Notes under the pieces: model-generated | The model's input: only the letters and a program-made list of their open reading frames with translations | The model's database searches: none | Told to the model about the DNA's origin: nothing | Assembly (NCBI GenBank): GCA_021228405.1 | Contig: JAJQRF010000002.1 | Location: forward strand, 930,001 to 994,000 | Direction: 5' to 3' | Length of the DNA: 64,000 nt | From: Pyrinomonadaceae bacterium | GTDB lineage: Bacteria; Acidobacteriota; Blastocatellia; Pyrinomonadales; Pyrinomonadaceae | Shown here: positions 13,056-22,312 of the stretch, piece after piece | Numbering within the stretch: position 1 is the first letter of the stretch | Layout: each line of letters begins with the position of its first letter | Translations under genes and position numbers: made by a program

Positions 13056-14453
13056 TTAATTCAAACGAATCGAATTAATCATATTGCGAAAAGCCGTGTT
13101 GTATCTCGACGCTTCGCCCGAAGGGACAACGGCAGCGATATAAAATAAATTGCCGTTTTGGAGTTGCGCCGTGTAGATCGTGACGGTTTCAGCCCGGTTT
13201 GTGACCGGCGAACGACCTTCCAAAACGGTCGTGTAAGCGTTGCGACCGCCTAACGTTCCGCGTGAATAATTGGTCTTTTGCCGCAAATAACTGTTCGCCT
13301 GCAAAATTCCGTTGACGTAATCTTCGGTCGCTTGCTGTAAATTGTTCGATTGCGGCTGGAAAACTCCGATCATCGCACCGTGCGTGATACCCTGATTGCC
13401 ATACGCGCCCTGCGGAGCAAATGTGACCTGATTTTGGTCTTCGAGCGTTTCCCAATTGCTCGGAACTCTCATACTGAAAAGATTTCCGCCCGTGTAAGAC
13501 TTAGTGCTTGTCGAAGGATAAGCAACGCTTGTCTGGTATCTGCCGTTGTTGACAGGACTTTGTTGACCGCTTCCGCCGTTTTTTTCGATCTCAGCCATCG
13601 ACGGTGCTTTCGGCATTCCGCGCAGACGGCTTTGAACGCGCTCGAAATCGCGTGTAATTTTGATCGGGTTCGACGAAACGCGAAGCATCGAGGCTTCTTT
13701 GTTGATCTTGTCGTAACGATTGCCCGGATCGGGGTGACTGCTCAACCATTCGGGCGCACGGCTTCCGCCGCTTTGTTGCTGAATGGTTCTGAACATATTA
13801 GCCAGATCGCGCGGGTCATAGCCCGCGTCCGCCAAAATCTGCGCGCCGAGAATGTCGGCTTGCGTTTCATATTCGCGGCTGTATTTCGTCAGCCAAGCCG
13901 CCGCGCCGACCGCGCCGAGCTGTGCGCCCGCTTCACCGCCGAGAATCGCGCCGCCCAAGATTAAACCGATCGTGCCGAGCTGTGTGCCGATGCTCGATTG
14001 TTTCGTCGCTTGTGCCGTTCCGTGTCGAAGTGCGACGTGCGAAATCTCGTGCGCCATCACACCCGCCATTTCGCCTTCGTTCTTCGCGGCTTCGATCATT
14101 CCGCGATTGACATACATCGGTCCGCCCGGAAGCGCGAAAGCATTGATGTCACTCGCATTTACGACTTTGAAACGGTAATCGAAAGCGGGTTGTTGAAACT
14201 GCGAAGGAATCGCTCTCACGAGTCTTTCGCCGACAGTGGTGACATATCTCTGTGCGTCCGAATCGTTCAGGATCGGAAATTGTTTTTCCGCTTCGCCTGC
14301 CGCCTGATTGCCGAGCTTCACGTCATCCTGCACCTTGTATTTATTTTTCGGCATGCTAATCCGTGTTTGCGCCAAGACCGAGATCGGCAAAACAAACATC
14401 GTCCACGCCAGTAAAATCGACGCTAAACCTTTGCTAAAATTATGTTTCTTCAT
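13056..14453 (-). CDS. Secreted M48 zinc metalloprotease, BepA-like
   Basis: The 465-residue protein has a signal peptide (to about residue 28, SVLAQ) and an M48 domain. The zinc site is GVMAHEISHVALRHG, and the third ligand lies in EYETQADILGAQ. It should act in the periplasm on outer-membrane proteins in the way BepA does. Unlike E. coli BepA, the roughly 190 C-terminal residues show no clear TPRs; instead there is a separate beta-rich domain after a Gly/Ser/Gln linker near residue 300. A strong AGGAAC site precedes the ATG. Confidence 0.9.
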   Translation of the reverse strand: MKKHNFSKGLASILLAWTMFVLPISVLAQTRISMPKNKYKVQDDVKLGNQAAGEAEKQFPILNDSDAQRYVTTVGERLVRAIPSQFQQPAFDYRFKVVNASDINAFALPGGPMYVNRGMIEAAKNEGEMAGVMAHEISHVALRHGTAQATKQSSIGTQLGTIGLILGGAILGGEAGAQLGAVGAAAWLTKYSREYETQADILGAQILADAGYDPRDLANMFRTIQQQSGGSRAPEWLSSHPDPGNRYDKINKEASMLRVSSNPIKITRDFERVQSRLRGMPKAPSMAEIEKNGGSGQQSPVNNGRYQTSVAYPSTSTKSYTGGNLFSMRVPSNWETLEDQNQVTFAPQGAYGNQGITHGAMIGVFQPQSNNLQQATEDYVNGILQANSYLRQKTNYSRGTLGGRNAYTTVLEGRSPVTNRAETVTIYTAQLQNGNLFYIAAVVPSGEASRYNTAFRNMINSIRLN

Positions 14454-14611
14454 CTGTTCCTCCCGAATTTTATTTTATTTAAGTCTATTCAAATCTTTCT
14501 AAATAAGCAAAATTATCAAAATAATAAGCTGACTTAAGATGAAAAAAGACGTTTTTTGCGTTCGCCCGAATTTGATTCATTCGATAGACAGGCGCGTTTG
14601 TCGTCTTTAAC

Positions 14612-14643
14612 TTACTTTAAAAGCAGTTTTGTTTTATACTGCT
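14612..14643 (+). promoter_or_regulatory. Candidate promoter and operator of the XRE gene
   Basis: TTACTT (14612-14617), a 17-base spacer and TATACT (14635-14640) precede the XRE start by 17 bases. The inverted repeat AGCAG (14622-14626) and CTGCT (14639-14643) overlaps the -10 and could be an operator for autorepression. Weak -35. Confidence 0.4.
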
Positions 14644-14657
14644 AGTTCTAAAATAAG

Positions 14658-15113
14658 ATGCTGACAAATAAGACAGATAATAAAACGAGAGAATTCAGGA
14701 ACAGATTGATCGAGCTTTGCGGAACGAATCAGCCTGCGGAATTGGCGCAAAAAATGGACATTTCCTATCAGGCAGCCCGCAACTATCTGAACGGCAGATT
14801 ACCTGAAACCAATGTTTTATTGATGATTGCCGAAAAAACGAAATGCTCGATCCACTGGCTGTTAACGGGCGAAGGCAAGAAATTCATCTCGGAACAGGAT
14901 AACTTAAACACACTCATAATTTCCGACCAAATGAAGGCATTTGTCAGGGAGCAATGTCTGGAAGTTTTTAGCGAACTTTTTGCCGTGTCGGATGAACCCG
15001 CTCAGATCGAAATAAACAATGTCGAGCAAAAAGTCGTCAAAATAGCCTCCGGCAAGATCAGGCTCGAAAAAACGGGAAAAAAATCTTCGGTTTTACCGGA
15101 AAATCAATCCTGA
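14658..15113 (+). CDS. XRE/CI-type helix-turn-helix regulator
   Basis: The protein has 151 residues. Residues about 10-70 are a lambda-repressor-type HTH: ELAQKMDISYQAARNYLNGR followed by CSIHWLLTGEGKKF, the ending typical of XRE proteins next to prophage and accessory genes. The C-terminal half (FVREQCLEVFSELFAV and a Lys-rich tail) is unknown and could bind a partner or ligand. It converges with mini-protein 1, only 26 bases between stops. A decayed copy of its last 180 bases lies at 15833-16012, joined to another mini-protein in the same geometry. I infer that it regulates the mini-protein or TPR genes. Confidence 0.85.
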   Translation: MLTNKTDNKTREFRNRLIELCGTNQPAELAQKMDISYQAARNYLNGRLPETNVLLMIAEKTKCSIHWLLTGEGKKFISEQDNLNTLIISDQMKAFVREQCLEVFSELFAVSDEPAQIEINNVEQKVVKIASGKIRLEKTGKKSSVLPENQS

Positions 15114-15139
15114 TCGCCGGTTTTAATTAATATTTCTTT

Positions 15140-15376
15140 TTATCTGAAGATCGAACTCAGATAATCTTGAATAAAATCAATTACAAAATTCGTCGTTTCG
15201 CTTGATTTTTTTATATCGCTGACCGACGTACTGACCGCACAATTTCCCGTGCAGTTTCTGCCGCCATTTCCCATATTCCCATCATCCGTAAAACCGCCTG
15301 CACCCATACTTCCATCAGCAAAAGCAGTCGCACAGAAAAGGATGACAACAAAGAAAATTTCTATTGTATTTTTCAT
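15140..15376 (-). CDS. Secreted mini-protein 1 of the XRE-TPR island
   Basis: The protein has 78 residues. The ATG at 15376 is chosen over one at 15382 because AGGAG then lies six bases away, exactly as in mini-protein 2, and all three paralogues then begin MKNTI. A 20-residue signal peptide ends AFA. The mature part has two DGxMGxGG repeats, a CTGNC pair, a Ser/Thr/Lys linker, and an amphipathic tail NFVIDFIQDYLSSIFR. No known family is recognised. It is the second gene after mini-protein 2 (gap 46 bases) and converges with the XRE gene. Confidence 0.75.
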   Translation of the reverse strand: MKNTIEIFFVVILFCATAFADGSMGAGGFTDDGNMGNGGRNCTGNCAVSTSVSDIKKSSETTNFVIDFIQDYLSSIFR

Positions 15377-15422
15377 TCTCATCTCCTTGAATTTATTTGA
15401 ATTTAATCAATAACACAAACTA

Positions 15423-15665
15423 TCATCCAAAAATGGAAATCAAATAATCTTGGATAAATTTAATCACCGAATCGGTTGGGGTTGAAGAATTTGACAAGCA
15501 AGTTGTATTCGGCGCACAGGTTTTTCCGTTGCCCATACTGCCATCCGTAAAACCATTGCCCATATTGCCCTCGTCCGCAAAACCGCCATTTCCCATACTG
15601 CCGTCAGCAAAAACAGTAGAACAGAAAAGAACGATCACTAAGAAAAATTTAATTGTGTTTTTCAT
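15423..15665 (-). CDS. Secreted mini-protein 2 of the XRE-TPR island
   Basis: The protein has 80 residues: a signal peptide MKNTIKFF to TVFA (20 residues), then three instead of two DG/EG-x-MG-x-G repeats, a CAPNTTC pair, and the tail SVIKFIQDYLISIFG. It is preceded by AGGAG and ATAAAA. Its upstream DNA matches that of mini-protein 3, including a run AACAAATCAAAAAA on the coding strand. Conservation is strong at both ends and weak in the middle. That pattern fits a processed or structured secreted product; the function is unknown. Confidence 0.75.
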   Translation of the reverse strand: MKNTIKFFLVIVLFCSTVFADGSMGNGGFADEGNMGNGFTDGSMGNGKTCAPNTTCLSNSSTPTDSVIKFIQDYLISIFG

Positions 15666-15705
15666 TTTTATCTCCTTCAGGACTTAATTTTTTGATTTGT
15701 TTTTT

Positions 15706-15735
15706 TTGATACTTTTGCGGTATCGCATTTATAAT
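15706..15735 (+). promoter_or_regulatory. Duplicated TPR-gene promoter, now without an intact gene
   Basis: TTGATA (15706-15711), an 18-base spacer and TATAAT (15730-15735) copy the TPR promoter at 16359-16388 exactly in hexamers and spacing. It now reads into gene remnants. On the minus strand the same core gives TATAAA and may serve mini-protein 2. Confidence 0.6.
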
Positions 15736-15800
15736 AACAAAAAATCCATAATTAGCCAGAACAAAAACACTCAACATAATCAATTTTGTATGCCGATATT
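15736..15800 (+). pseudogene. Remnant of the 5' end of a second TPR gene
   Basis: Aligned by eye with the intact TPR gene start, this stretch keeps the spacer after the promoter and then AAAACACTCAACATAATC against AAAACTCTCCACACACAATC, followed by the shared AATCAATTTTG (15778-15788 here, 16434-16444 there). The start ATG is lost, a 3-base indel is present, and an in-frame stop follows. Homology fades by about 15800. Confidence 0.6.
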
Positions 15801-15832
15801 TAACCTGAAATATCTTGCCGAAATAGTTCTAA

Positions 15833-16012
15833 AGAAAATTTAAATACACTTCCAACATCCGACCAAATGAAATCATTTGTCAGTAGAAATATCCGAAAGT
15901 TTTTAACGAATTTTTTATTTTGCCGAAAGAGTCTTTTTATCGAAAAGAAAATCAGCGAATGCAAAATCGTTAAAATAAATTCAGATTAAGATCAGGCTTA
16001 CAACGACAAAAA
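15833..16012 (+). pseudogene. Remnant of the 3' half of a second XRE gene
   Basis: This stretch aligns base by base with the tail of the XRE gene (about 14905-15075). It shares TCCGACCAAATGAA, CATTTGTCAG and AAGTTTTTA, then AAGATCAGGCT near the end. The reading frame is broken by substitutions and stops, and the HTH part is absent. The similarity continues through the downstream spacer (CCTGATCG and TTTTTATC) into mini-protein 3, as the XRE gene does into mini-protein 1. The 408-base gap 15666-16073 holds only the promoter copy and these two remnants. Confidence 0.75.
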
Positions 16013-16073
16013 TAAATATTTAGTTTTTCGGAATAGTAAACCTGATCGGTATTTTTATTAAACACTTAAGTTT

Positions 16074-16316
16074 TTATCCGAAGATCGAATTCAGATAGTC
16101 TTGGATAAAATCAATTACAAAACTAGTTGTTTCGCTTTCGCTTGACTTTTTTGGATCAACAGTCGGCTTATTGATTGCGCAATTGCTTGTGCAAGTTCTG
16201 CCGCCGGCACCCATAGTTCCGTCATCTGTAAGACCACCAGCACCCATAGTTCCGTCGGCAAAAACGGTTGAGCAGAAAAGAACGATTACGAAGAAAAGTT
16301 TAATTGTGTTTTTCAT
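16074..16316 (-). CDS. Secreted mini-protein 3 of the XRE-TPR island
   Basis: The protein has 80 residues. The start at 16316 follows AAGGAG and aligns with the paralogues; a longer reading from 16367 would place the ribosome site inside the gene. It has a signal peptide MKNTIKLF to TVFA, two DGTMGAGG repeats separated by LTD, the pair CTSNC, a polar linker, and the tail SFVIDFIQDYLNSIFG. It is closest to mini-protein 1. It is divergent from the intact TPR gene, with 98 bases between them that hold a strong promoter. Confidence 0.75.
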   Translation of the reverse strand: MKNTIKLFFVIVLFCSTVFADGTMGAGGLTDDGTMGAGGRTCTSNCAINKPTVDPKKSSESETTSFVIDFIQDYLNSIFG

Positions 16317-16358
16317 TATATTATCTCCTTGGGGGATTGTTTTTTTTGATTTGTTACC

Positions 16359-16388
16359 TTGATACATTAAGCCTTTTATGTTTATAAT
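16359..16388 (+). promoter_or_regulatory. Promoter of the TPR/LexA-fold gene
   Basis: TTGATA (16359-16364), an 18-base spacer and TATAAT (16383-16388) lie 26 bases before the ATG at 16415. On the minus strand the same core reads TATAAA, so the two divergent genes may share it. Confidence 0.7.
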
Positions 16389-16414
16389 GGCAAGAAATTT
16401 CGTTAGCTAATTTG

Positions 16415-17941
16415 ATGAAAACTCTCCACACACAATCAATTTTGAGTCCTGGTGTTCTAATCGATAAACTTTTTCGTTTGGAAAGACAGGGCAGATATGC
16501 CGAAGCTCTTACAGAAGCTAAACAGTTTTGGAATGATACAGATACGCCGCCTGTTCTGGAAGGATTTTCCAAGTATGAAGCGGCTGATATGTTTTTAAGG
16601 CTAGGTGCTTTGATTGGTTTCGATGGACAAAATAATCAAATTCCAGACGCTCAAATAAGTTCAAAAAATTTTCTTTCAAAAGCTCATCAAGATTTTATCG
16701 AGTTGGGAAAAACCGAAAAAATTGTGGAGTGCGAAAACTATCTGGCACTTGCTTTTTGGCGAACAGGCGAATTCAATGAAGTAAAAATATGGATTGAGGA
16801 AGCCTTTTCTCATAATCTACCAGACAGTCATCAAACAAAGTTACATACTTATGTGATAGAAAGCTTAGTTAATCTCTCACTTGGGGATTATCAAGCAACG
16901 TTTGACCTAGTCCTGCAAATTGAAAAGTCATTCAATGATTGCGGTGATGATTTTTTGAATGGTAGTTTTTATACTAATGTCGCCGCTGCTTATGAAAAAG
17001 TAGGTAATCATCAAAAAACTCTTCATAATTTAGAAGTTGCGAGATATTATCATCAAAAATCAAAACATAAAATTTACTTAGGAGTTGTAGAAAATAATCT
17101 GGCGCAGTTATACAAGCTGGAAGAACGTTTTCAGCAGGCGCATTTGGCGAGCGATAATGCGACGAAGATTTTCAAACAGATCAAAGACCGCACTCGCGAA
17201 GGGTTTTCGCTCGATACGAAAGCGCAGATTTTTATTCACGAGCAGAAGTTTGAAGAAGCTCTGCAAGTGATCGAAAAAGCCCTCAAAATTTTAGCCAAAA
17301 CCGAAAATAAAGGTTATTTCGTCGAAACGATGCTCACGAAAGTTAAGGCATTGGTGCATCTCGATGAAATTTCGGCGGCAACGATGTGTCTTTTTGAAGC
17401 GGTTGAAATCGCCAAAGTTCACATCGGCGAAGAAACCGCAAACAATCTGATTAAGGAATTTGAAAACACCTTGCGCGAAAAAATGGCAGTTAAACCGAAC
17501 CGCGAAGAGAACGTGGAAAAGATCGAGGAACGAGCAGAAACCGCCGGGAAAGATGAAATAGTCGAAACGGAAGAAACGGATTCGGGCATTGCTCTGGAAT
17601 TTGTTCTGCCGCCGCAACTTTCTCACTATGACGATATTCAGGTCGTTCAGATTCAGAACAGGCATCTCGAAGCGGTTGGATTAAAGCAGGATTCGCTTGC
17701 CATCGTTGTCAGAGAAACGGTCAATCGCGGAGATTTGGCGGCTATTTCCGAAAGAGAAACGGAAGCCGTGATGTGCGGTTTTTACGATTGCGATTTCGGG
17801 ATCGTTTGTCTGGAAGGGATCGAAAGCGAACCGCAGTTGTTTGACGAAAACGAAATTGAAATTCTCGGAAAGATCGTCGGCGTTTGCGATGCGCTACCCA
17901 CCAACGGCAATAAATTATTTGTCCAACCCTTAAAATTTTAA
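16415..17941 (+). CDS. TPR protein with degenerate LexA/S24-like C-terminal domain
   Basis: The protein has 508 residues from ATG 16415; a TTG three bases earlier is possible and no clear ribosome site is seen. Residues about 15-350 form TPR-like helix pairs (for example NVAAAYEKVGNHQKTLHNLE). A Glu-rich linker follows, and the last 115 residues resemble the LexA/S24 fold: VGLKQDSLAIVV, then EIEILGKIVGVC. By eye the catalytic Ser and Lys positions are not conserved, so it is probably not a peptidase. Base composition changes near 17095 from AT-rich to host-like. I infer a sensor or effector for the neighbouring secreted mini-proteins. Confidence 0.8.
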   Translation: MKTLHTQSILSPGVLIDKLFRLERQGRYAEALTEAKQFWNDTDTPPVLEGFSKYEAADMFLRLGALIGFDGQNNQIPDAQISSKNFLSKAHQDFIELGKTEKIVECENYLALAFWRTGEFNEVKIWIEEAFSHNLPDSHQTKLHTYVIESLVNLSLGDYQATFDLVLQIEKSFNDCGDDFLNGSFYTNVAAAYEKVGNHQKTLHNLEVARYYHQKSKHKIYLGVVENNLAQLYKLEERFQQAHLASDNATKIFKQIKDRTREGFSLDTKAQIFIHEQKFEEALQVIEKALKILAKTENKGYFVETMLTKVKALVHLDEISAATMCLFEAVEIAKVHIGEETANNLIKEFENTLREKMAVKPNREENVEKIEERAETAGKDEIVETEETDSGIALEFVLPPQLSHYDDIQVVQIQNRHLEAVGLKQDSLAIVVRETVNRGDLAAISERETEAVMCGFYDCDFGIVCLEGIESEPQLFDENEIEILGKIVGVCDALPTNGNKLFVQPLKF

Positions 17942-18021
17942 TCTGATTTAACCGCGTTCAGAGTTTCTGCTTCGGCAGTCTTTTCGCTGACCGACCGCCG
18001 CCTGAAGACGGAACTCTAAAA

Positions 18022-18213
18022 TTAAACCGTGATGCTTTTCTCTTTTGTCAAAGGCTTGACCGGCTGTTTTTCGTGAGTGGAAATCGGTTTCAAAACGTCC
18101 TGAATTCTTTTTATAAAAACTCTGACTTCTTCTGAATCAATTTTTTCGTTGTGGCGTTTCTCGATCAGAAAAGCGAAAGCCAGATCATTCCCCAAATCAT
18201 CCAATAAATTCAT
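18022..18213 (-). CDS. Small hypothetical protein
   Basis: A 63-residue frame, MNLLDDLGNDLAFAFLIEKR followed by a helical segment and a Pro/Lys-rich tail. Codon use looks like neighbouring genes, which is the main support. No ribosome site is seen and no family is recognised. Just downstream of the TPR stop, at 17967-17984, is a short CTGC-TTCG-GCAG stem with T residues that may end the TPR transcript. Confidence 0.45.
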   Translation of the reverse strand: MNLLDDLGNDLAFAFLIEKRHNEKIDSEEVRVFIKRIQDVLKPISTHEKQPVKPLTKEKSITV

Positions 18214-18312
18214 ATATTAATTTGTAAGCAGTAAACGCACGCCTTCCTAAAATTACCTTTTACTTCAAAAACGGTCCGATTTTTTTCCGAATCAACAATG
18301 GTATTTATCCAA

Positions 18313-18340
18313 TGTTAGAACAATGTTAATTAAATGTTAA
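18313..18340 (+). promoter_or_regulatory. Candidate Pho box upstream of pstS
   Basis: Three direct repeats TGTTAg/a start at 18313, 18324 and 18335, exactly 11 bases apart (complement TTAACA-N5-TTAACA-N5-CTAACA). This is the spacing and, on the minus strand, the hexamer of PhoP/PhoB sites. TATAAT follows at 18380-18385. The 308-base gap 18214-18521 shows nothing else except AT-rich leader sequence. Confidence 0.55.
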
Positions 18341-18521
18341 ATCTGCCCTTGAGAAAAAAGCCCTTCCGAAAAATTTAAGTATAATTTAACCCGTAATGAC
18401 AAAACTTTAGACTATAATCAAAGAAAATTTTGGGTTGAAACATAACGTCTAAACTATTGTTTTAATAATATTTTAAGAGATCATTTATCAAAAACGGTTA
18501 TAAGAATTGCGGGAGATTTTA

Positions 18522-19625
18522 ATGACTGGAAGCAATTTTTTTACGAGAAAGATTACAGGTATTTTTTTGTTTATGTGTCTGTCGCTGAGTCTGGCTTGCA
18601 GTGGTCAGCCGATGGGCGAAAGCAACGGTTCACAGGGCGGCAATTCTAAATTAACGGGCGCAGGTTCGACATTTGTAAAACCGATGATGGACAAATGGAC
18701 GAACGAGTTCGGAAAGCTTTATCCGTCGGTCAAAATCGATTATTCGGGCGGCGGCTCGGGCGCGGGAATCAAGGCGATTCAGAATCAAACTTCCGATTTC
18801 GGCGCGTCTGATGCGGCGATGTCCGACGACGAATTGAAACAGGCGAAAGGCGGCGAGATCGTTCATATTCCCGTCGTTCTCGGCGCGGTCGTGCTGACTT
18901 ATAATTTGAAGGAAGTTACCGAGCCGCTGAAACTTACGCCGGAAATCATTGCGGACATTTATCTCGGCAAGATCAAAAAATGGAACGACGAAAAGATCAA
19001 AAAGGAGAATCCGAACGCCGCGCTTCTGGCTTCGGACATTACGCCCGTTTTTCGCGCTGACGGGAGCGGAACATCGGATGTTTTCACGGATTTTCTTTCA
19101 AAAACGGTTCCCGAATGGAAGGAAAAGGTCGGACGGACAAAAAATCCGCAGCTTCCGCAAGGTGTCGGGATCGGCGGAAAAGGCAACGAAGGCGTGATGG
19201 GACAAGTCAAAAACACGCCGAACACGATCGGTTACGTCGAACTGACTTTTGCGAAAGCGAATAATCTGCCGACGGCTTTGGTCAAAAATGCGGCGGAAAA
19301 TTTTGTCGAAGCGACGAGCGAAACGGTTTCGAGTGCCGCCGCCGGAATGACCGCGAAAATGCCCGAAGATTTGCGTTATGAGATCACAAATGCAGAGGGC
19401 GCGGACGCTTACCCGATTTCGGGAATGGTTTACATTTTGGCTTACAAAGATCAGAAAGACACGGTGAAGGGTAAAAACCTGGCTGATTTTTTGTGGTGGG
19501 CGATTCACGACGGCGAAAAATACGTAAAGGAATTGCACTATGCGCCGCTTCCCGCCGAGCTCGTGAAAAAGACCGAAGCAAAGATAAATTCACTTTCAAA
19601 CGGCGGAAAATCGTTAAGACCGTAA
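18522..19625 (+). CDS. pstS: Phosphate ABC transporter substrate-binding lipoprotein PstS
   Basis: The start at 18522 follows GGGAGA and gives a lipoprotein signal ending LSLAC; a TTG at 18507 is rejected. The mature 340 residues bind phosphate outside the inner membrane and hand it to PstCA. Phosphate-loop motifs are visible: GAGSTFVKPMMDKW, DYSGGGSGAGIKAI, TSDFGASDAAMSDDE and FRADGSGTSDVF. It is the first gene of pstSCAB-phoU and is preceded by a candidate Pho box, so phosphate starvation control is likely. Confidence 0.97.
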   Translation: MTGSNFFTRKITGIFLFMCLSLSLACSGQPMGESNGSQGGNSKLTGAGSTFVKPMMDKWTNEFGKLYPSVKIDYSGGGSGAGIKAIQNQTSDFGASDAAMSDDELKQAKGGEIVHIPVVLGAVVLTYNLKEVTEPLKLTPEIIADIYLGKIKKWNDEKIKKENPNAALLASDITPVFRADGSGTSDVFTDFLSKTVPEWKEKVGRTKNPQLPQGVGIGGKGNEGVMGQVKNTPNTIGYVELTFAKANNLPTALVKNAAENFVEATSETVSSAAAGMTAKMPEDLRYEITNAEGADAYPISGMVYILAYKDQKDTVKGKNLADFLWWAIHDGEKYVKELHYAPLPAELVKKTEAKINSLSNGGKSLRP

Positions 19626-19634
19626 ACGCAGAAA

Positions 19635-20561
19635 ATGGCTAAAACAGGCACGACCGGGGACAAGATTTTCCGCACCGTTTTATTGATTGCCGTTTCGATA
19701 ATTCCTTTAATTGTCGCGGCGATAATTTATATGATGGTGCAGAATTCTCTGCCGACGCTTCAGCGTTTCGGAGTCGGTTTTCTGACGGGAAGAGAATGGA
19801 TTCCGGCGCAGGAAACCTTCGGCGCACTGCCTTTTATTTACGGAACAATCGTTTCTTCGGTCATTGCACTGATAATTTCCGTGCCGCTTTCGCTCGGAAT
19901 CGCGATTTTTCTGGTCGAACAAGCCCCGAAAAATCTGGCAAAACCGATCTCGTTTATGGTCGAATTGCTCGCGGCAATTCCTTCGGTCGTTTACGGGCTT
20001 TGGGGAATTTTCGTGCTTGCGCCGTTCGTCCGCGATTATCTCGGCGCATTTTTGCAGAAATACCTGGGTTTTCTGCCGCTTTTTCAAGGTCGTCTGACGG
20101 GAATCGGGATGCTGACGGGCGGAATCATTCTCGCGCTGATGATAATTCCGATCTTAACGGCGGTCGTGCGCGATGTTTTGGAAGTTGTGCCCGTGACACA
20201 GCGCGAAGCCGCGCTTGCGCTCGGCGCGACGAAATGGGAAACGACGAAGGTCGTGCTCGGAAACGCGGCTTCGGGCATTGCGGGCGCGGTCGTTTTAGGG
20301 CTTGGACGTGCGATCGGCGAAACGATGGCGGTGACGATGGTGATCGGAAATTCACCGCAGATTTCCGCTTCCGTCTTTGAACCCGCTTACACGATCGCTT
20401 CGGTTTTGGCGGCAAATTTCGCCGATGCGACCGAAAAAATCTACCTGAGCGCACTGATCGAAATGGGATTGGTTTTATTTTTTGTAACTTTTGCCGTCAA
20501 TGCGTTGGCGAAACTTTTGATTATCGGCGTTTCACGTAGAAACGGCGTTGCTAAGGCGTAG
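19635..20561 (+). CDS. pstC: Phosphate ABC transporter permease PstC
   Basis: The protein has 308 residues with six hydrophobic segments and the permease coupling region REAALALGATKWETTKVVL, which contacts the ATPase. LAAIPSVVYGLWGIFVLAPF is typical of PstC. It forms the inner-membrane channel with PstA. It starts nine bases after pstS. The gap to pstA (100 bases) is filled by a hairpin repeat. Confidence 0.96.
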   Translation: MAKTGTTGDKIFRTVLLIAVSIIPLIVAAIIYMMVQNSLPTLQRFGVGFLTGREWIPAQETFGALPFIYGTIVSSVIALIISVPLSLGIAIFLVEQAPKNLAKPISFMVELLAAIPSVVYGLWGIFVLAPFVRDYLGAFLQKYLGFLPLFQGRLTGIGMLTGGIILALMIIPILTAVVRDVLEVVPVTQREAALALGATKWETTKVVLGNAASGIAGAVVLGLGRAIGETMAVTMVIGNSPQISASVFEPAYTIASVLAANFADATEKIYLSALIEMGLVLFFVTFAVNALAKLLIIGVSRRNGVAKA

Positions 20562-20563
20562 AA

Positions 20564-20653
20564 AGTCTTGAGTCAAAAGTCCTGAGTCGAAAAAAACTTC
20601 GGATTTGAAAGTTTGGATTCGGACTTTGGACTCAAGACTCCTGACTCCGGACT
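20564..20653. repeat. Heptad hairpin between pstC and pstA
   Basis: The left arm (20564-20588) is AGTCTTG AGTCAAA AGTCCTG in seven-base steps. The right arm (about 20621-20653) is GGACTTT GGACTCA AGACTCC TGACTCC read as a seven-base tandem. The arms are inverted copies with scattered mismatches. It fills the whole gap inside the operon. Confidence 0.8.
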
Positions 20654-20661
20654 GTTGAAAA

Positions 20662-21507
20662 ATGGCTGAAACAAATTCACAAAATCACGGGCGCAGAAAG
20701 CTTGTCAGCAGTGTGATGACGACGCTGACGGCGGCGTGTGCGGTTTTTGTGGTTGCCGTTTTGCTTTTGATAATTTCATACATTGCGATTCGCGGGTTTT
20801 CTTCGATCAGCGTTCAGTTTTTGATCGACACGCCGAAACCCGTCGGCGAAGGCGGCGGCATCGGCAACGCGATTCTCGGTTCGGTGATGATGACCGCGCT
20901 CGCTGCCGTGATCGGTTTGCCGATCGGAGTTTTGGCGGGAATTTATCTCGCGGAATTCGGCAATAACTGGTATGGAAACGTCGTGCGGTTTCTGGCTGAC
21001 ACTTTGGTCGGTGTGCCTTCGATCATTATCGGGATTTTTATTTATACGCTGATCGTTGTGCCGATGGGCAGACAATCGGGTTTGGCGGGCGGGCTTGCGC
21101 TGGCACTGATAATGATTCCGATCGTGGCGCGCACGACCGAAGAGATGATTCGGCTCGTGCCCGATGCGATGCGCGAAGGTGCGTTGGCACTCGGCGCACC
21201 GCAATGGCGCGTGACGTGGAACATCGTGCTTCCGGCGGCTTCGACGGGAATCGCGACGGGCGCGATGCTTGCCATCGCAAGAATTACGGGCGAAACCGCA
21301 CCGCTTTTGTTTACTGCGCTGAACAGCCGTTTTTATAATTTTTATCTCGATCAGCCGATGTCGTCTTTGACGGTTCAAATCTTTAATTACGCGACCGGAC
21401 CGTTCGAGGTCGAACACGCGATGGCTTGGGCGGCAACGTTAATTTTGGTCGGGATCATTCTGGTGATAAATGTTCTGGTGCGGTTTTTGACGCGCAAGCG
21501 GTTTTAG
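20662..21507 (+). CDS. pstA: Phosphate ABC transporter permease PstA
   Basis: The protein has 281 residues and six hydrophobic segments. [20 protein letters not shown] and the coupling helix [20 protein letters not shown] identify PstA. It pairs with PstC as the membrane channel. The ATG lies eight bases after the heptad hairpin, without a clear ribosome site, so translation may depend on the structure upstream. pstB follows after 13 bases. Confidence 0.96.
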
Positions 21508-21520
21508 GATTGGAGTTTTT

Positions 21521-22312
21521 ATGACATACCGAATTTCCGAACTCCGGCAAACTATGAGAAGCAAGATAAGCGTTTCAAATTTGAATTTTTACTACGGTAA
21601 AACACAGGCTTTGCAGGATATTTCGATGGAAATTCCCGAACGTGAAGTCGTCGCTTTTATTGGTCCGTCGGGTTGCGGAAAGTCGACGTTTTTGCGAACG
21701 CTGAACCGTATGAACGACACGATCGCGGGAACGCGTGTCGAGGGAAAAGTCACGATTGACGAGCAAAATATTTACGCTTCGGGAACGGATGTGGTCAGCT
21801 TGCGCCGTAAGATCGGGATGGTTTTTCAGAAATCGAATCCGTTTCCGAAATCGATCTTTGAAAACGTCGCGTATGGAATCCGCATCAACGGAATTCATAA
21901 AAATAAAGCCGATCTGCACGAACGCGTCGAAAAGGCTCTGCGCGATGCCGCCCTCTGGGACGAAGTGAAAGACCGTCTGAATGCTTCGGCTTTCGGGCTT
22001 TCGGGCGGACAGCAACAGCGGCTCTGTATTGCGCGTGCGTTAGCGGTTCAGCCGCAGGTTATCCTGATGGACGAACCCGCGTCCGCACTCGACCCGATTG
22101 CGACGCAGAAGATCGAAGAACTTGTCGTCGATCTGAAGAAGGATTACACGATCGTCATCGTGACGCATAATATGCAGCAAGCATCGCGCGTTTCGGACAA
22201 AACGGCGTTTTTTATGCTCGGAAAACTGGTCGAATTTAATCCGACGCAAAAGGTTTTCCAAAATCCCGACGAGCGTTTGACGGAAGATTACATTACGGGA
22301 AGATTCGGGTGA
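21521..22312 (+). CDS. pstB: Phosphate ABC transporter ATPase PstB
   Basis: The protein has 263 residues. Walker A is GPSGCGKST, the signature is [15 protein letters not shown], and Walker B is [13 protein letters not shown]. The segment [17 protein letters not shown] is specific to PstB. It drives phosphate import by PstSCA. A GGAG site precedes the ATG at 21521; an internal ATG 36 bases later is an alternative. The following 122-base gap to phoU holds a heptad hairpin. Confidence 0.97.

Follow-up and report, generated by a model that had tools for sequence, protein, structure and literature searches.

The window, i.e., the whole 64,000-nucleotide stretch of Pyrinomonadaceae DNA analyzed here, carries three small precursor genes that form one copy of a large precursor–regulator system rather than an isolated, odd family of secreted proteins. 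We propose, at a probability of roughly 0.6, that the precursors are the source of short signaling peptides and that the TPR protein encoded divergently from them is their cytoplasmic receptor, the two constituting an RRNPP-like system in the diderm Acidobacteriota. Cytoplasmic TPR receptors reading peptide signals are known from Bacillota; Acidobacteriota are abundant, little understood soil bacteria, and the system resembles a peptide language used between cells, of which none had been noticed in this bacterial group before. A preliminary description of the three genes overlooked the regulator partners and the much wider family, throughout which the unit occurs whose local form is DGxMGxGG.

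Small Exported-Type Proteins of the Window

The precursor genes lie in tandem on the minus strand. Precursor 1 (15140–15376) has 78 aa counted from MKNTI, an alternative start in the ORF caller giving MRMKNTI and 80 aa; its signal peptide is followed by the units DGSMGAGG and DGNMGNGG (15257–15316, DGSMGAGGFTDDGNMGNGGR), the Cys pair CTGNC and a tail. Precursor 2 (15423–15665; 80 aa) combines a signal peptide with three units, DGSMGNGG, EGNMGNGF and DGSMGNGK (15525–15605), CAPNTTC and a tail, and precursor 3 (16074–16316; 80 aa) carries a signal peptide, two identical DGTMGAGG units (16197–16256), CTSNC and a tail. The unit regions were delimited by copy comparison and the repeat test. ORFs and translations thereby bear out the described signal peptide MKNTI...FA (predicted here by sequence rules), the mature start DG, the Cys pairs and the unit numbers of 2, 3 and 2. 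The tail had been given as FVIDFIQDYLxSIFG for all copies, which is exact for copy 3; copy 1 has FVIDFIQDYLSSIFR, ending in SIFR, and copy 2 has SVIKFIQDYLISIFG.

The three frames are real genes, because their dN/dS lies between 0.15 and 0.21 (about 0.21 for copies 1–2, 0.15 for 1–3 and 0.16 for 2–3, at a dS of 1.0–1.6 that is close to saturation). An AAGGAG-like ribosome site precedes every start codon, the gaps in the copy alignment are whole codons, and the differences fall mostly at codon position 3. A diversifying use had been suggested for the copies; the same dN/dS values do not support diversification by selection among them. No known family was recognized in the preliminary description, and we found no Pfam match for the three proteins at E ≤ 10 and no NCBIfam match at E ≤ 1 for precursor 2, the sole copy searched.

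Self-comparison of the window showed 125 nt present in three copies at 72–80% identity. Copies 1 and 3 arose by a tandem duplication (14898–15389 versus 15834–16331, 71%). The duplicated stretch included the 3′-end of the HTH gene discussed below, whose second copy persists in decayed form on the plus strand at 15834–16050, the latter coordinate being approximate. The module is AT-rich, with a G+C content of 0.33–0.40 over 15000–17250 compared to about 0.46–0.58 in the genes before 14000. A promoter-like TTGATA-18-TATAAT ahead of the TPR gene (16359–16388), with a copy at 15706–15735, was considered and rejected, as the scan found 4 sites versus 6.3 expected and thus gives no evidence. Rfam at gathering thresholds detected no RNA element in 14000–18500.

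TPR and HTH Partners

Both partner genes are on the plus strand, outside the span covered by the preliminary description. The first one (14658–15113), convergent with the precursor genes, encodes a CI-type HTH protein (Pfam Phage_CI_repr, E 7.4e-7, over the cut-off), a proposed DNA-binding partner. The second one (16412–17941, with ATG at 16415 as the likelier start) is divergent to precursor 3 at a distance of 95 bp and encodes the proposed receptor, a protein matching TPR_12 over the cut-off. Its AlphaFold2 model (pLDDT 87) consists of a superhelix at residues ~10–360 and a beta domain at ~395–505 (17594–17926), the latter placed by profile alignment and models.

Modeled alone, this C-terminal domain is predicted to have the S24 (LexA/CI) fold: its best 30 structure matches are LexA, lambda CI, UmuD and phage 186 repressor, headed by 3k2z (Z 11.8, 3.0 Å over 102 residues); Foldseek was also run. 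A search of PDB sequences with the domain alone produced no match at E ≤ 10. In a profile alignment to LexA 3k2z (E 0.0015), the places that we take to be those of the catalytic Ser–Lys dyad are occupied by His and Gly. The predicted domain fold and the CI-type HTH in the neighboring gene resemble LexA and phage CI; unlike in these repressors, the HTH and C-terminal domain are encoded by separate genes, and TPR stands in the HTH position of a chain that itself contains no HTH.

Homologs of the HTH gene were found past the precursors in 12 more loci with this kind of TPR protein (L008, L079, L083, L084, L086, L092, L093, L094, L095, L096, L104 and L105; in L086 the contig end truncates the precursor and the TPR gene is missing), and the local module therefore comprises three genes. 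At the corresponding place no HTH homolog was found in L009, L020, L021, L080, L081, L082, L085, L089, L090, L091, L097 and L098. L085 has a weak HTH match at another place, and in L009, L020 and L089 an HTH_8-like stretch, under the Pfam cut-off, lies within the TPR protein itself. The TPR partners of L081, L097 and L098 are chains of 355–363 aa without an output domain and have no CI-type HTH homolog nearby.

Pairing of Precursors and TPR Genes

Separate profiles for precursors and for TPR proteins were run against 60 genomes belonging to the family of the window. A larger TPR group, scoring 149–197 bits with the first TPR profile, has divergent precursors of other sequence; in these wide-family precursors, a unit of the type G[DEIW][IM]xxG, in many cases with a linker rich in proline, lies between a signal peptide and a hydrophobic tail. 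Precursors were then called by fixed rules on position (opposite strand, start at −150 to +400 bp, 40–130 aa) and on sequence (a ribosome site, a basic N-terminus and a hydrophobic core, and small residues where cleavage is expected). Such a precursor is present at 93 of 102 testable TPR loci in Pyrinomonadaceae (close loci 16/17, wide 54/58, later loci 17/21, own genome 6/6), whereas under the same rules a single TetR gene out of 29 and a single one of the 42 other window genes pass. The rules were fixed after inspecting the close loci and 18 of the 58 wide ones (15 of these 18 pass); among the loci unseen before that, 56/61 pass (wide 39/40, later 17/21).

The close set is made of 20 stretches minus L086 (contig end, no TPR gene), L088 (TPR fragment) and L087 (moved to the wide set), the wide set of 60 loci minus the contig edges L065 and L069, and the TetR control of 30 loci minus the edge L173, while the window-gene control counted 2/43 before removal of the TPR gene itself. 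Later loci were dropped if residues 31–200 of the TPR protein were identical to earlier ones, and L207 was an edge. Nine loci fail the rules: a looser rule gives L066 a precursor, L191 and L193 have precursors just beyond the limits, and within 1200 bp no precursor was found in L071, L073, L091, L146, L184 and L194. The precursor in L193 has five GNITV units and is separated by 417 bp from a TPR gene whose product has 817 aa.

In the reverse direction, the 60 genomes were searched with a profile built from 16 precursors of the wide family. At E ≤ 1e-6 (rows weaker than that, to 0.001, were excluded) this profile has 103 matches, 102 of them divergent to a TPR match and 100 of these 102 no more than 500 bp from its start. 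Conversely, 100 of 144 TPR places have a divergent match to this profile; the places are 140 rows, taken without the window genome and at least one short fragment (G049:C574), plus four places, and the other 44 include the close subfamily, whose precursors the wide profile does not cover. Outside the window genome, the first precursor profile had 18 matches. A TPR match lies divergent to 13 of them, G037:C82 is next to an HTH gene where its contig ends, and the other four, all weak (E 4e-4 to 4e-3), are without a TPR match. In 87 loci, the starts of the two genes are a median of 124 bp apart. At G009:C17:46388-47362, three precursor matches stand in a row beside one TPR gene, a tandem array like that of the window.

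The window TPR protein has ten matches in its own genome at E ≤ 0.001, six with E < 1e-13 and four generic ones with E > 1e-4, and all six of its relatives have a divergent upstream precursor. Ten own-genome precursors are thus distributed as three in the window, one with 108 aa and five units at C7:440.9 kb, two plus two at C4:1089–1093 kb, one at C4:488 kb and one at C7:1154 kb; all share the signal peptide, the unit, two Cys and the tail. A sixth TPR gene of the genome (L021:8405-9466) ends at 353 aa near a contig end, and the start of contig C10 (L088:34-723) has a matching C-terminal part, which may reflect an assembly break or a broken gene.

In the samples taken, the module is confined to one family. 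The wide TPR profile matched 5 of 199 genomes of a phylum sample at E ≤ 1e-45, with at most nine candidates scored per genome, and all five belong to the family of the window. In a class sample of 118 genomes, 40 match at E ≤ 1e-20; 37 of these belong to the family, and the other three are weak matches in another one (E 2.5e-25 to 6.4e-21). TPR matches per genome reach eight among the 60 genomes and ten, fragments included, in the class sample; the own genome has nine rows, some of which are pieces of one gene.

Fold and Outputs of the TPR Proteins

Among the structures on which the TPR model can be superposed are pheromone-bound Rap (4gyo, Z 24.9, 6.0 Å over 336 residues; 8rsv, Z 24.9, 6.3 Å over 336) and NprR (5dbk, Z 24.0, 5.7 Å over 312). 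The fold does not by itself point to pheromone binding, since LGN (5a6c, Z 26.5, 3.8 Å over 319) and APPBP2 (8jal, Z 27.4, 4.2 Å over 319) superpose equally well. A PDB sequence search returned NprR (6.7e-7) and RapH (1.6e-6), both ranked under many other TPR proteins, and Pfam scans, one set covering six TPR proteins down to E 10 or 1 and another covering seven down to E 0.01, gave general TPR models, with no RNPP-, Rap-, ComR- or Rgg-named model. N228 is invariant and N229 almost so in the close TPR set, and the wide set shows no variation at the corresponding NN; such Asn residues hold peptide backbones in other TPR proteins.

Wide-family TPR proteins possess C-terminal regulator domains: HTH_8 in L115 and L197, HTH_8 and a receiver in L119, sigma-54 AAA+ plus HTH_8 in L180, and the same in L062, where HTH_8 is just below the cut-off. 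Those examined are therefore transcription regulators.

Relation to Known Peptide Systems

In Bacillota, RRNPPA systems (Rap-Phr, NprR-NprX, PlcR-PapR, AimR-AimP) likewise have neighboring genes for a small Sec-type precursor and for a cytoplasmic TPR regulator. Passages of two papers report repeated pheromones in some RRNPPA precursors, several precursor genes per receptor at some loci, and receptors without a precursor (PMC9765709, PMC11343458), and RRNPP/RRNPPA systems are described in Firmicutes in passages of PMC10075063 and PMC9765709. The acidobacterial system differs in its phylum and diderm cell, in the divergent gene order, in the TPR being followed by an HTH_8, sigma-54, receiver or LexA-like output, in the position of the unit at the mature N-terminus with repetition inward, and in the absence of RNPP-named models among its Pfam matches. 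Most likely it works like RRNPPA, and we do not class it as a member.

Searches of the literature, with preprints outside their scope, for RRNPP, quorum sensing or peptide pheromones in Acidobacteria, Acidobacteriota, Blastocatellia or Pyrinomonadaceae, and for peptide quorum sensing in Gram-negatives, gave no such system among the matches listed; RRNPP together with "acidobacteri" was absent from the literature searched. In heterocyst-forming cyanobacteria, which are diderm as well, the short peptide of a small precursor, PatS, acts on the DNA-binding regulator HetR. HetR is not a TPR protein, and we know of no comparable family of divergent pairs there.

We regard it as an even bet that Pyrinomonadaceae possess a peptide language of their own, with up to about eight private precursor/TPR channels per genome and interchangeable outputs (HTH_8, sigma-54, receiver, or a dead LexA domain with CI-type HTH), which evolved apart from Bacillota RRNPPA. 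If true, Acidobacteriota would have a large, separately built counterpart of the Bacillota systems and a readable signaling code, their regulation could be tested with cheap synthetic peptides, and many new peptide–receptor pairs would become available. Small exported proteins and TPR regulators, many of them still unnamed, would likewise gain a function class.

Proposed Mechanism and Alternative Explanations

We hypothesize that the precursor exits via the Sec pathway, that signal peptidase exposes a mature N-terminus formed by the first unit (DGxMGxGG in the window), and that additional cuts release the remaining units. A released peptide would re-enter the cell, with an oligopeptide permease as the candidate route, and sit in the TPR groove, altering transcription. 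At the window locus the output would be split between the TPR protein, fused to a presumably protease-dead LexA/CI dimer domain, and the separate CI-type HTH protein; at other loci TPR would act through a fused HTH_8, sigma-54 AAA+ plus HTH_8, or HTH_8 plus receiver. Counting against signaling is the diderm cell, which demands a second export and import step.

The units are repetitive in many precursors. When each mature part was tested against shuffled versions of itself, a significant internal repeat of seven residues was present in 35 of 80 (p < 0.05; 30 at p < 0.01), the remaining 45 having none; a loose anchor pattern, which also picks up out-of-register stretches, finds at least two units in 57 of 98 precursors. 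At the six non-anchor positions, identity is 0.376 between units of one precursor and 0.193 between units of different precursors (0/5000 permutations). The first unit begins no more than two residues from the predicted cleavage site in 68 of 88 unit-bearing precursors. Over 98 pairs of TPR proteins with 60–70% identity, the precursors keep 0.53 of the unit (a figure that counts the anchoring Gly), 0.42 of the tail and 0.33 of the linker.

Within the peptide-signaling reading, we favor the unit over the tail as the ligand. The same module might instead use the conserved C-terminal helix (VIDFIQDYLxSIFG in the window) to bind the TPR groove, with the repeats serving otherwise, which we consider somewhat unlikely. 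TPR distance does track the tail best (r 0.669, against 0.426 for the signal peptide and 0.152 for the unit, 83 pairs; tail 0.475 and unit 0.315 in 66 wide-family pairs), and because both tail and signal peptide follow it better than the unit, the correlation test does not single out the unit; coevolution was accordingly dropped as proof of the ligand. The tails of this subfamily are amphipathic, as the preliminary description had noted for the three copies, and 7 of 10 own-genome tails are more amphipathic than at least 95% of their own shuffles; furthermore, several of the matched TPR structures bind segments of other proteins, and a passage of PMC9765709 places the pheromone of most RRNPPA precursors at the C-terminus. 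Linked inheritance could account for either correlation, and slow change of the tail together with linkage would suffice for that of the tail, which is the conserved part, whereas the unit is the varied one. Moreover, unit copies within one precursor change jointly: L210 and L213, with TPR proteins 75% identical, have GETSTPP twice and GETATPP twice, respectively.

Signals, bacteriocin-like toxins and surface proteins had all been suggested for the small proteins, and the fixed pairing with TPR regulators now favors the first of these. Exported effectors (bacteriocin-like, surface or adhesive), with a TPR gene that only regulates its neighbor on another cue, would agree with the hydrophobic tails and with the common control of an adjoining gene by a divergent regulator. 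We judge this unlikely, given a near-obligate pairing in both directions across very different regulators and precursors, units that are copied within precursors and differ between paralogs of one genome, and a scan of ten window neighbors in which neither an immunity gene nor a dedicated export gene was found. It is distinctly improbable that the TPR protein binds unexported precursor, so that the cytoplasmic level reports the state of Sec or the envelope with no cell-to-cell signal: such a gauge would spare a diderm cell the re-import and agree with the pairing and with a signal peptide and a tail that are both hydrophobic and conserved, but it leaves unexplained why units are repeated and locus-specific and why a genome holds several private pairs. 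Short repeated cores, and at least one Cys past residue 20 in 54 of 98 precursors, also recall precursors of modified peptides (RiPPs), a highly improbable identity considering the Sec-type signal peptides and the lack of a modifying enzyme among the ten window proteins adjoining the module.

Neighboring Genes and Further Observations

A defense system was considered and rejected for lack of a PADLOC match for the window TPR and HTH proteins at E ≤ 0.001; one wide-family TPR protein gave two weak generic matches. A search with a close alignment gave eight loci, the last of which is a weak, generic TPR match in a Bacteroidetes record. Viral contigs searched with alignment A5 contained no relative. 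Five contigs listed as viral in IMG/VR (L258–L262) carry wide-family TPR genes, with a divergent precursor in 5/5 under limits slightly wider than the main rules. The own genome has three SBP_bac_5 genes, in keeping with the oligopeptide permease proposed above as a route of re-entry. In the window, the TPR gene is followed by phosphate-type ABC transporter genes (binding protein, two permeases and ATPase; 18507–22312), and the HTH gene adjoins a Peptidase_M48 gene (13056–14453) whose product has a signal-peptide-like start and may be a processing enzyme.
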